A stretch of DNA of 64,000 bases. It comes from Flagellimonas nanhaiensis (lineage in GTDB: Bacteria > Bacteroidota > Bacteroidia > Flavobacteriales > Flavobacteriaceae). A program made the translations under genes and the position numbers. Shown here one piece after another: positions 4,386-6,760 of this stretch. Location of the stretch: positions 186,001 to 250,000 of the forward strand of contig NZ_QTJX01000003.1 of the NCBI RefSeq assembly GCF_003382275.1, written 5' to 3'. The notes beneath the pieces are model-generated. The model was not told the origin of the DNA and did not search any database. It saw nothing but the letters and a program-made list of their open reading frames with translations. Each line of letters opens with the position of its first letter. Positions within the stretch are counted from its first letter, which is position 1.

Positions 4386-5408
4386 ATGAACGAGAATCTA
4401 GACCCGACCGCAGACAATTTTTCCCAGGAGGAGCTCGATATTGAAAGAGCCTTAAGGCCTGTCACCTTTGACGATTTTACAGGTCAAGCTCAGGTATTAG
4501 AGAACTTGAAGATATTTGTGGAGGCCGCTAATTTGAGGGGAGAAGCTTTGGACCATACTTTGTTTCATGGCCCGCCGGGATTAGGAAAAACCACACTGGC
4601 GCATATTTTGGCCAATGAGCTGGGAGTGGGGATCAAGGTAACATCGGGCCCGGTATTGGACAAACCTGGGGACTTGGCCGGATTGCTGACCAATTTGGAA
4701 GAACGGGATGTACTCTTTATTGATGAGATCCATAGATTAAGTCCCATTGTTGAGGAATATCTGTACTCGGCCATGGAGGACTACAAAATAGATATCATGA
4801 TTGAGACAGGTCCCAATGCTAGGACCGTTCAAATAAATCTGAGTCCATTTACTTTGATTGGCGCAACAACAAGATCGGGATTGCTCACTGCTCCCATGCG
4901 AGCTAGGTTCGGGATTCAAAGTCGTTTACAGTATTATAATACTGAATTGTTGTCCACTATTGTAGAACGTAGTGCGGACATTCTTAAGGTTCCAATATCC
5001 CATGAAGCTGCAATAGAAATTGCGGGAAGAAGTAGAGGCACGCCCAGAATCTGTAATGCGCTGTTGCGCAGGGTAAGGGACTTTGCCCAGATCAAGGGCA
5101 ATGGAAACATTGATATGGAAATTTCCAAATTTGGCCTCAAAGCGCTCAATGTGGATACCCACGGATTGGATGAAATGGATAATAAAATTCTTTCTACCAT
5201 CATCGATAAATTCAAAGGTGGGCCAGTTGGGATTACTACATTGGCTACTGCTGTCTCAGAAAGTGCCGAGACCATTGAAGAAGTATACGAGCCTTTCCTG
5301 ATACAACAAGGATTCATAATGCGCACTCCAAGAGGACGTGAGGTTACTGAATTGGCCTATAAGCACTTAGGTAGGGTCAAAGGAGGAACACAAGGAGGAC
5401 TTTTTTAG
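4386..5408 (+). CDS. ruvB: Holliday junction branch migration ATPase RuvB
   Basis: 340 residues, full length for RuvB. The AAA+ core shows Walker [10 protein letters not shown] (62-70), Walker [10 protein letters not shown] with D111-E112, and the sensor/arginine stretch GATTRSG. The C-terminal winged helix ends in the usual region with TPRGRE. RuvB hexamers drive branch migration on RuvA-bound Holliday junctions. ruvA is about 8 kb away (13381) rather than adjacent, as is common in this phylum. The gene is followed directly by the GIY-YIG inverted-repeat element. Confidence 0.97.
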
Positions 5409-5437
5409 TAAATTGAAAATTTTCAAAATCTATGAGT

Positions 5438-5461
5438 GTCAGGCTGAGCGCAGTCGAAGCC
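5438..5461 (+). repeat. Left 24-bp terminal inverted repeat of the GIY-YIG element
   Basis: Begins GTCAGGCTGAGCGCAG and ends GAAGCC. It is the exact reverse complement of 5810-5833. It lies 29 bp after the ruvB stop. Internally only a weak GGCT/AGCC hairpin is possible. Confidence 0.9.
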
Positions 5462-5492
5462 ATTCTTTATGACAAATGCTTAAATTTACTAC

Positions 5493-5807
5493 GTGTACAC
5501 CTACTACGTTTACATTTTAAAATGTGCTGATGATTCCCTTTATACAGGAATTACCAATAATATTCAATTGCGATTGCAGCAACATCAATCTGGCTTCGAT
5601 AAGAATTCATACACATATCAAAGAAGACCTATTGAGTTGAAATTTCAACAAGAATTCAATCACGTGCTACAAGCTATTTCCTTTGAGAAAAAAATAAAAG
5701 GTTGGACAAGAGCTAAAAAGATTGCTTTAATAGAAGGAGATTTTAACAAACTTCAAGCTTTAGCAGAATGTAGAAATGCAACCCACTATAAGTATAAATC
5801 TAAATAA
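5493..5807 (+). CDS. Small GIY-YIG family endonuclease
   Basis: 104 residues. The N-terminus [20 protein letters not shown] shows the paired GIY-YIG strands (here YVY and YTG), followed by LRLQQHQSG, the arginine-helix region, and later [20 protein letters not shown] with the conserved catalytic-type glutamate of the family. This is the short stand-alone (UPF0213/YhbQ-like) type, not a UvrC fragment, because no UvrC domains follow. The start is GTG at 5493; no in-frame ATG precedes it. The gene is more AT-rich than the repeats around it and lies entirely between the two 24-bp inverted repeats, which suggests that the nuclease acts on or maintains those repeats. That role is inferred. Confidence 0.85.
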
Positions 5808-5809
5808 AG

Positions 5810-5833
5810 GGCTTCGACTGCGCTCAGCCTGAC
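5810..5833 (-). repeat. Right 24-bp terminal inverted repeat of the GIY-YIG element
   Basis: Exact reverse complement of 5438-5461. It starts 2 bp after the GIY-YIG stop codon and ends 3 bp before the queG ATG. Confidence 0.9.
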
Positions 5834-5836
5834 CCC

Positions 5837-6760
5837 ATGAATATCAAGGAAAAACATACCCAATTGATCAAGACCGAAGCCAAGCGCCTCGGTTTTTTGT
5901 CATGTGGAATCTCAAAAGCAGAATTTCTGGAGGAAGAGGCTCCTCGCCTAGAAAAATGGTTGGGGAAAGGAATGCATGGGGAGATGGGGTATATGGAGAA
6001 CCATTTCGATAAGCGTTTGGATCCCACTAAGCTTGTTGATGGCGCAAAATCTGTAATCTCATTGTTGTTGAATTATTTTCCTTCAGAGAAACAGGTTTCT
6101 GATTCCTATAAAATTTCCAAATATGCCTACGGAACGGATTATCACTTCGTGATAAAGGATAAGCTCAAATCCTTGCTGCAATTTGTTCAAGAAGAAATTG
6201 GGGAAGTCCATGGTCGTGCTTTTGTTGATTCAGCCCCGGTTCTGGATAAAGCTTGGGCTGCCCGCAGCGGACTGGGATGGATAGGAAAGCATAGCAATCT
6301 TCTTACCCAACAGGTAGGTTCGTTCTATTTTATTGCTGAGTTGATTGTTGATTTGGATTTGGAATATGATAGTCCAGTAACTGACCATTGCGGTACCTGT
6401 ACGGCATGTATTGATGCTTGCCCTACGGAAGCAATTGTGGAACCTTATGTGGTGGATGGAAGCAAGTGCATCTCATATTTTACCATTGAGTTAAAAAATG
6501 AGATTCCATCAGAATTTCAAGGCAAATTTGAGGATTGGATGTTTGGTTGTGATGTTTGCCAAGATGTCTGCCCTTGGAACCGTTTTTCAAAACCACACCA
6601 AGAACCTCTATTTAATCCGCACCCAGATTTGTTGTCCATGACAAAGAAAGATTGGGAAGAGATTACCCAAGAGGTATTTCAAAAAATATTCAAGAAATCG
6701 GCAGTTAAGCGAACCAAATTTTCTGGTCTACAAAGAAACATCAACTTCATTTCAAGCTAG
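5837..6760 (+). CDS. queG: Epoxyqueuosine reductase QueG
   Basis: 307 residues. QueG reduces epoxyqueuosine to queuosine in the anticodon of tRNAs with GUN anticodons, using cobalamin and two 4Fe-4S clusters. The two cluster motifs are complete: C185-x2-C188-x2-C191-x3-C195 ([12 protein letters not shown]) and C211 with C238-x2-C241-x3-C245 ([11 protein letters not shown]). The conserved aspartate of FVDSAP is D131. The start codon follows 3 bp after the right repeat of the GIY-YIG element, so its native leader appears to have been displaced. Its 3' end overlaps the convergent lacI-type gene by 9 bp. Confidence 0.95.

Follow-up and report, generated by a model that had tools for sequence, protein, structure and literature searches.

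We identified a compact unit between ruvB and queG of Flagellimonas nanhaiensis in which a small GIY-YIG nuclease gene stands between two perfect inverted repeats. Our sequence comparisons make it likely that this unit is a nuclease/hairpin module, made up of a GIY-YIG enzyme, two cognate tagged hairpins, and solo copies of the hairpin dispersed in the genome. The nuclease/hairpin module is real and widespread, and it appears to be mostly inherited and sometimes gained by recombination.

The unit and its nuclease

The window is the whole stretch of DNA analyzed, 64,000 nucleotides of contig NZ_QTJX01000003.1, and positions refer to it unless another locus is named. The left tagged repeat (GTCAGGCTGAGCGCAGTCGAAGCC; 5438 to 5461, plus strand) reads GTCA followed by GGCT-GA-GCGCAGTC-GA-AGCC, with a TGTCA tag that begins at 5437 and points outward from the nuclease gene. 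The nuclease gene (5493 to 5807, plus strand), recognized as an open reading frame with a PF01541 match, has a GTG start and encodes a stand-alone protein of 104 residues. The right tagged repeat (5810 to 5833, minus strand) is the exact reverse complement of the left one, the 24-bp pair matching perfectly over both arms, and its GTCA tag, read on the minus strand, is 5830 to 5833. Upstream lies ruvB (4386 to 5408, plus strand; NCBIfam equivalogs NF000868 and TIGR00635) and downstream lies queG (5837 to 6760, plus strand; NCBIfam equivalog TIGR00276), with a 3-bp gap (CCC) between the right repeat and the queG ATG at 5837. The sequence-only reading that had drawn attention to this unit gave the perfect 24-bp repeats, the 104-residue reading frame, and the 3 bp to queG with the right coordinates and lengths. 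A search of the window with the 16-bp repeat core, allowing up to 3 mismatches, returned 2 matches versus 0.14 expected, and 1 of 100 shuffles reached 2.

The window nuclease matched the GIY-YIG domain PF01541 with 60.2 bits against a cutoff of 22.6, over profile positions 2 to 76 of 78. This was the sole Pfam family matched, and there was no match to an HUH tyrosine (Y1) transposase. Thirteen residues were invariant in 48 aligned relatives (C11, Y17, G19, R27, H31, G34, T41, P46, E65, K69, W71, K75, and K76), among them the tyrosine, arginine, and glutamate that we take to be part of the GIY-YIG active site. An AlphaFold2 model had a mean pLDDT of 91.1, and a fold search gave the UPF0213 proteins 1zg2 and 1ywl as the best matches, followed by the branched-DNA nuclease Slx1; the likeness to the UPF0213 proteins extends to both fold and sequence. 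No PADLOC or NCBIfam family named the nuclease at the thresholds used, and plasmid and phage searches returned nothing of at least 60% identity (18 and 16 records, all below). The nuclease is single copy in the F. nanhaiensis genome at an E value of ≤1e-15. That genome has 10 GIY-YIG loci, and three of them (L008, L009, and L011) have an accepted repeat pair.

The tagged repeat and its association with the nuclease

We examined the best 80 of 364 nuclease relatives for flanking repeats. In 74 of them, an inverted pair lay no more than 200 bp from the gene, versus 9 of 143 shifted places 1,500 bp away; a few of the 74 pairs (L029, L033, L047, and L074) lack the tagged form and could have arisen by chance. 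A larger set of 137 distinct nuclease sequences, with some genomes counted more than once, had 129 of 143 loci flanked. For a second group, that of a distant paralogue in the F. nanhaiensis genome, the numbers were 23 of 30 loci versus 2 of 57 shifted places. Flanking repeats were also present at 18 of 24 GIY-YIG loci from 18 genomes, a figure that we leave out of the evidence because the sample has no control and many of its loci are those by which the genomes were chosen. TGTC-tagged repeats flank GIY-YIG nucleases in several phyla. Since the related nucleases lie mostly between hairpins of their own kind, the window pair looks like one working unit.

The repeats share a common form. Out of 258 possible arms from 129 loci, 199 (158 of them unique) fit the pattern of a tag, four bases, GA, G...C, GA, and four bases. 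Of the 158 unique arms, 117 carry the tag GTCA and 108 the longer TGTCA. The outer stem is Watson-Crick at 598 of 632 positions (1,000 permutations: mean, 266; maximum, 318). This excess is somewhat inflated, since pairing was one of the criteria for choosing the register and the arms were read only outward. The register is mostly secure because the center GCGCAGTC, found in 95 of the 158 arms, fixes it in most arms. Among the unique arms, the stem covaries, with several pair types at each position. When the best pair of each of 124 distinct loci was considered, the tags pointed outward in 94, inward in 9, and both ways in 2, and the remaining 19 had another core. In the single-strand hairpin of the window repeat, the GA/GA step constitutes two mismatches, which we infer to form stacked G-A pairs. 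By nearest-neighbor folding, the window repeat is not an unusually stable hairpin (z of 0.02), and the repeat of the F. nanhaiensis paralogue is unusually stable (z of −5.1).

Solo copies without the nuclease, which the sequence-only reading had suggested counting, are present in the F. nanhaiensis genome, which comprises 4.03 Mb in 19 contigs. When up to 3 mismatches were allowed, the 20-bp core was found there four times, twice in the flanking pair and twice as a solo copy (control, 0), and the looser pattern GTCANNNTGAGCGNAGTCGAA, with up to 1 mismatch, occurs 10 times, flanks included (reversed control, 0). The same reading had suggested that such repeats are frequent in Flavobacteriaceae. 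This holds in part only: their presence in the family is borne out by a stricter pattern, with no control matches, and their frequency comes to 43 of 199 genomes. Close inverted pairs of solo repeats (REPIN-like, <200 bp) are few, with 1 among 48 repeats in G265, 2 among 35 in G273, 3 among 16 in G196 (one with its tags inward), and 0 among 10 in F. nanhaiensis (G000). Tandem arrays of the tagged repeat were seen at L210 (2067 to 2252), L211 (2931 to 3218), and L212 (7369 to 7822), with five repeats at 46 to 47 bp, six at 54 to 71 bp, and four at 151 bp, respectively. An open frame of 233 codons contains one solo window-class repeat (L204 position 2750, G000:C15:151249).

Repeat number was associated with the nuclease at the levels of both genus and family, in tests that ignore shared descent. 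In a sample of 60 genomes of the genus, with a close nuclease defined as a best match of at least 130 bits, the median was 10 repeats in genomes with a close nuclease (n = 19), 4 in those with distant ones only (n = 20), and 4 in those with none (n = 21). The comparison of close nuclease with none gave a P value of 1.7e-5 with the carriers' own flanking repeats included; deducting 2 repeats per carrier lowered the median to 8 (P = 3.4e-4), and deducting 4 lowered it to 6 (P = 7.4e-3). Of the 199 genomes of the family, 62 had the nuclease (E ≤ 1e-20) and 137 lacked it. At least one stricter repeat was present in 27 of the former and 16 of the latter, and at least three repeats were present in 13 and 5, respectively (P = 2.1e-4). 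The nuclease was absent at this E value from 16 of the 43 repeat-bearing family genomes. Two genomes are exceptions to the association: G001 has 44 repeats and a distant nuclease only, and in G273 there are 35 repeats, possibly an orphaned population, with the nuclease missing at an E value of ≤1e-15.

The kind of repeat also follows the kind of nuclease. We defined classes by the same repeat on both sides, with patterns written after the repeats had been inspected; a class could be assigned to 90 of 173 loci, and the thinning of close sequences left 48 of these. On the tree of these 48 nucleases, the seven repeat classes require 6 changes, which is the minimum, versus a mean of 18.5 after shuffling, with 0 of 200 shuffles as low. 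Of the individual classes, A, B, D, and E each require one change and C, F, and G each require two, and class F (2 rows) is not clustered. Some repeat classes are confounded with taxonomy. Two genomes, G071 and G060, each appear in two repeat classes on the nuclease tree, and the F. nanhaiensis genome itself holds two classes, that of the window and one reading GTC(A/T)TTCCTGC...GCAGGAA with CCA tails at its paralogue C8:127894; different classes on paralogues within one genome argue against mere taxonomy. The paralogue repeat, with up to 3 mismatches, has six matches in the F. nanhaiensis genome (control, 1), of which two are the flanking pair and two overlap at one place. The claim of the sequence-only reading that nuclease and repeats belong together is thus upheld by the flanking counts, the covarying stem, the agreement of class with clade, and the repeat-number association.

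Descent of the ruvB-queG locus and traces of entry

We compared 30 queG loci in the genus, that of F. nanhaiensis and those of 29 relatives. The nuclease stands beside queG at two of them, those of F. nanhaiensis and G005, and no nuclease match adjoins queG at the other 28. Empty ruvB-queG sites, which the sequence-only reading had proposed to look for, were found in 7 of the 29 relatives' loci, where ruvB abuts queG; ruvB is 0.8 to 1.4 kb off in 9 and outside the flank compared in 13, including G005. A nuclease search added two further queG-linked carriers in the genus, G265 and G266. The ruvB-queG gap in the genus thus holds nothing, about 0.8 to 1.4 kb of other sequence, or the nuclease, and one such insert, in L117, reads by eye like a cytochrome P450. 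Within the 5′ coding part of queG in the window (5873 to 5898), there is an inverted repeat followed by T's (ACCGAAGCCAAGCGCCTCGGTTTTTT), which is nearly constant in the queG loci inspected for gene remnants (see below) and has a loop too long for the terminator scan used.

The four genus carriers need 4 changes on a queG tree of 32 rows, at least 3 of them forced by well-supported branches, and the F. nanhaiensis sister on that tree, G015 (87/95, not among the best-supported forks), has an empty site. The neighborhood itself recurs. After four duplicated genus loci were dropped, ruvB and/or queG lay near the nuclease at 23 loci, four of them in the genus and the others in, among other genera, Seonamhaeicola, Marixanthotalea, Flavivirga, Mariniflexile, and Gelidibacter; at several of the 23, ruvB or queG is 1.4 to 2.4 kb from the element, and L147 has ruvB on the other side. 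Where the nuclease, ruvB, and queG were all present (17 loci, 16 of them different), Mantel tests gave a correlation of 0.55 between nuclease and ruvB distances, with 0 of 2,000 permutations as high, 0.40 between nuclease and queG (P = 0.0005), and 0.64 between ruvB and queG. Pairs of nucleases with at least 90% identity shared a neighbor in 22 of 23 cases, and pairs with 60 to 70% identity did so in 66 of 2,151. The ruvB-queG neighborhood in other genera and the nuclease-ruvB correlation therefore point to a mainly inherited, patchily kept locus. These comparisons suggest that the position of the nuclease between ruvB and queG is old and for the most part inherited, that the nuclease has been lost there at times, and that it was replaced from outside at least once. 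In L017, which is titled Rhodobacteraceae, ruvB and queG group with a Flavobacteriaceae genome, and this is probably a misbinned contig.

Two loci carry clear traces of how the nuclease may have entered. In G266, the sequence left of the element agrees with the empty G001 locus across the intergenic region and roughly 20 codons of queG; the agreement stops 8 bp short of the left repeat, or continues up to it when a small deletion is assumed. To the right of the element follows a complete queG whose first codons resemble those of G005. In G092, a methyltransferase remnant of 25 to 27 codons plus a stop, flagged by the search for relatives of that gene itself, lies directly before the element (0 bp) and the complete gene lies after it. 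In G072, a relative of G092, the two neighbor genes are separated by about 25 bp and the element is absent, and in G064 the same gap contains, by eye, inverted repeats of the same general kind and no nuclease. Set against free-standing homing endonucleases, which invade empty alleles of a single target gene, both empty alleles and truncated gene remnants were observed. The remnants in G266 and G092 are compatible either with the joining of a tag-terminated donor end within the resident gene or with a long duplication of the target.

We regard a homing-like gain with end joining as quite possible, if somewhat short of probable. Here, a donor segment consisting of the nuclease and its downstream gene would enter by way of homologous sequence in the downstream gene, and the left end of the segment, produced by a cut at the TGTCA tag, would be joined illegitimately in the 5′ end of the resident gene. 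Such a gain would be a route into new genomes and is compatible with the nuclease/hairpin module reading. It is favored by the G266 and G092 remnants, including the complete queG start in G266 and the element-free G072, and by G265, whose nuclease groups with Gelidibacter (93/89) and whose ruvB and queG group with their own genus (100/100). However, the 118 distinct loci yielded only two clear and two weak cases (G005 and L168), a long target duplication would look alike, and inspection of the left flanks of the F. nanhaiensis and G265 copies revealed no convincing queG remnant. Long target duplications were also considered as a general signature and rejected. About 15 initial candidates were found, of which only G266 and G092 were kept as clear; many of those dropped consisted of the repeats themselves (L138, L152, L029, L027, L036, and L058) or another repeat family (L179 to L181), and L168 (22 bp) and G005 were weak.

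The sequence-only reading had taken the unit for a small self-mobile or non-autonomous repeat system. An autonomous mobile element, in which the nuclease would cut both hairpins and the 396-bp unit would excise or copy into new sites, is unlikely. The empty junction in 7 of 29 relatives' loci, the scatter of the four genus carriers over the queG tree instead of forming a clade (4 changes, at least 3 forced), the scarcity of shared neighbors at 60 to 70% identity, and the truncated 5′ target-gene remnants left of the element, at 8 bp in the G266 queG and 0 bp in the G092 methyltransferase, would all suit mobility. Against it stand the one nuclease copy in the genome at an E value of ≤1e-15, the shared neighbor in 22 of 23 pairs with at least 90% identity, and the recurrent, inherited ruvB-queG neighborhood with its vertical signal. 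There was also no clear target-site duplication at the window copy, where a 4-base ATGA seen by eye on both sides (5432 to 5435 and 5837 to 5840) does not abut the repeats and is within chance. An insertion sequence was rejected on the single copy and the lack of a clear target duplication, and a freely jumping element is weakened by the recurrent position. It is very improbable that the repeats are merely hairpin transcription terminators around a small UPF0213-type repair gene: the repeats do lie at gene ends here and UPF0213 proteins are the closest solved relatives, but a scan of 5300 to 5950 found 0 terminator-like sites (0.6 in shuffles), repeat class follows nuclease clade, and solo copies occur elsewhere, one of them inside the 233-codon frame (L204 position 2750).

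Comparison with known systems

The Ssn enzymes, reportedly described in Nat Commun in 2025, are said to be site-specific single-stranded GIY-YIG nucleases with a cognate repeat, NTS, in Neisseria. They reportedly cut DNA only when it is single-stranded, at this repeated sequence, and modulate natural transformation in Neisseria. Many homologues with differing cognate sequences are said to exist, and NTS copies are said to number in the hundreds in Neisseria. By analogy, the window nuclease is probably an Ssn-kind enzyme. The two are alike in being small stand-alone GIY-YIG proteins with a cognate repeat dispersed in the genome; the 10 copies in F. nanhaiensis are modest beside the hundreds reported for Neisseria. 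Set against the description of Ssn, the window unit has an inverted motif pair flanking the gene and a recurrent ruvB-queG locus.

The comparison with REP sequences and their RAYT transposases that the sequence-only reading had drawn proved apt. RAYT genes have flanking REPs, with one REP family per enzyme (a passage of PMC6006769), and show vertical inheritance, with more REPINs where the enzyme is present (a passage of PMC8049555). The enzymes cut the single-stranded REP at its tag (a passage of PMC3733652). The nuclease/hairpin module resembles this system in having the enzyme gene between inverted tagged hairpins of its own class, several such pairs per genome, repeats that are commoner in enzyme-bearing genomes, and largely vertical inheritance. 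It differs in that the window enzyme is a GIY-YIG protein, not an HUH tyrosine transposase, and the tag is TGTCA, not GTAG.

REPs with a CGTC tag form a second point of reference. These were stated in 2013, in a passage of PMC3733652, to "apparently lack a dedicated transposase," and the same paper equates the CGTC-1 REPs of Neisseria with the dRS3 repeats. Judged by its tag, the window module is probably related to the CGTC REPs, which had no known dedicated enzyme in 2013. The left arm of the window unit has TGTC at 5437 to 5440 and the right arm GGTC, which is similar to the CGTC REPs, whose tag reads CGTC or TGTC; however, the window repeat has a 4-bp stem, a GA/GA step, and a fixed center, whereas those REPs have an 8- to 9-bp stem, a 4- to 5-base loop, and a CCA tail.

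Because Ssn enzymes reportedly cut in this manner, the module is built like REP/RAYT, and the dRS3 repeats of Neisseria are CGTC-1 REPs, we expect that the hairpin would be cut in single-stranded DNA at the tag. The nuclease would bind the repeat as single-stranded DNA and cut at or beside the tag, as RAYTs do on GTAG-tagged REPs and as Ssn reportedly does on its target. It would most likely act on single-stranded intermediates, either incoming transforming DNA or the lagging strand. In this way, it may shape DNA import and occasionally spread repeats, and the module would move between species mainly by recombination in flanking genes. A ComEC-domain gene is present in the F. nanhaiensis genome; it lends weak support to the transformation reading because 10 of 14 control genomes also have one.

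Tentatively, and with more doubt than confidence, we extend this proposal to suggest that small GIY-YIG single-strand nucleases may be the dedicated propagating enzymes of the TGTC/CGTC-tagged half of the REP world. This would be an invention independent of REP/RAYT, in which tagged hairpins are cut in single-stranded DNA, solo repeats spread, and the cassette enters through tag-defined ends joined inside a neighbor gene. The 2013 question of an enzyme for the CGTC REPs becomes testable because TGTC repeats flank GIY-YIG nucleases and the classes of repeat track the clades of nuclease. Should the predicted cutting occur, each locus would also provide an enzyme that cuts single strands at a specific sequence, together with the target of that enzyme. 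A literature search that is poor on subscription papers, and so says little about what is in print, found no link of GIY-YIG to such repeats; PMC9465073, the one listed paper to contain GIY-YIG along with RAYT and "repetitive extragenic," simply names both in a gene table.

The F. nanhaiensis paralogue at C8:127894 (L008/L244) resembles the CGTC REPs in form as well as tag, with repeats that have TGTC/GGTC tags, an 8-bp stem, and a CCA tail. Another GIY-YIG gene of this genome, L009 (G000:C8:1065310), is flanked on either side by TGTCATTTCGA-type repeats, which may represent a third class in this genome.
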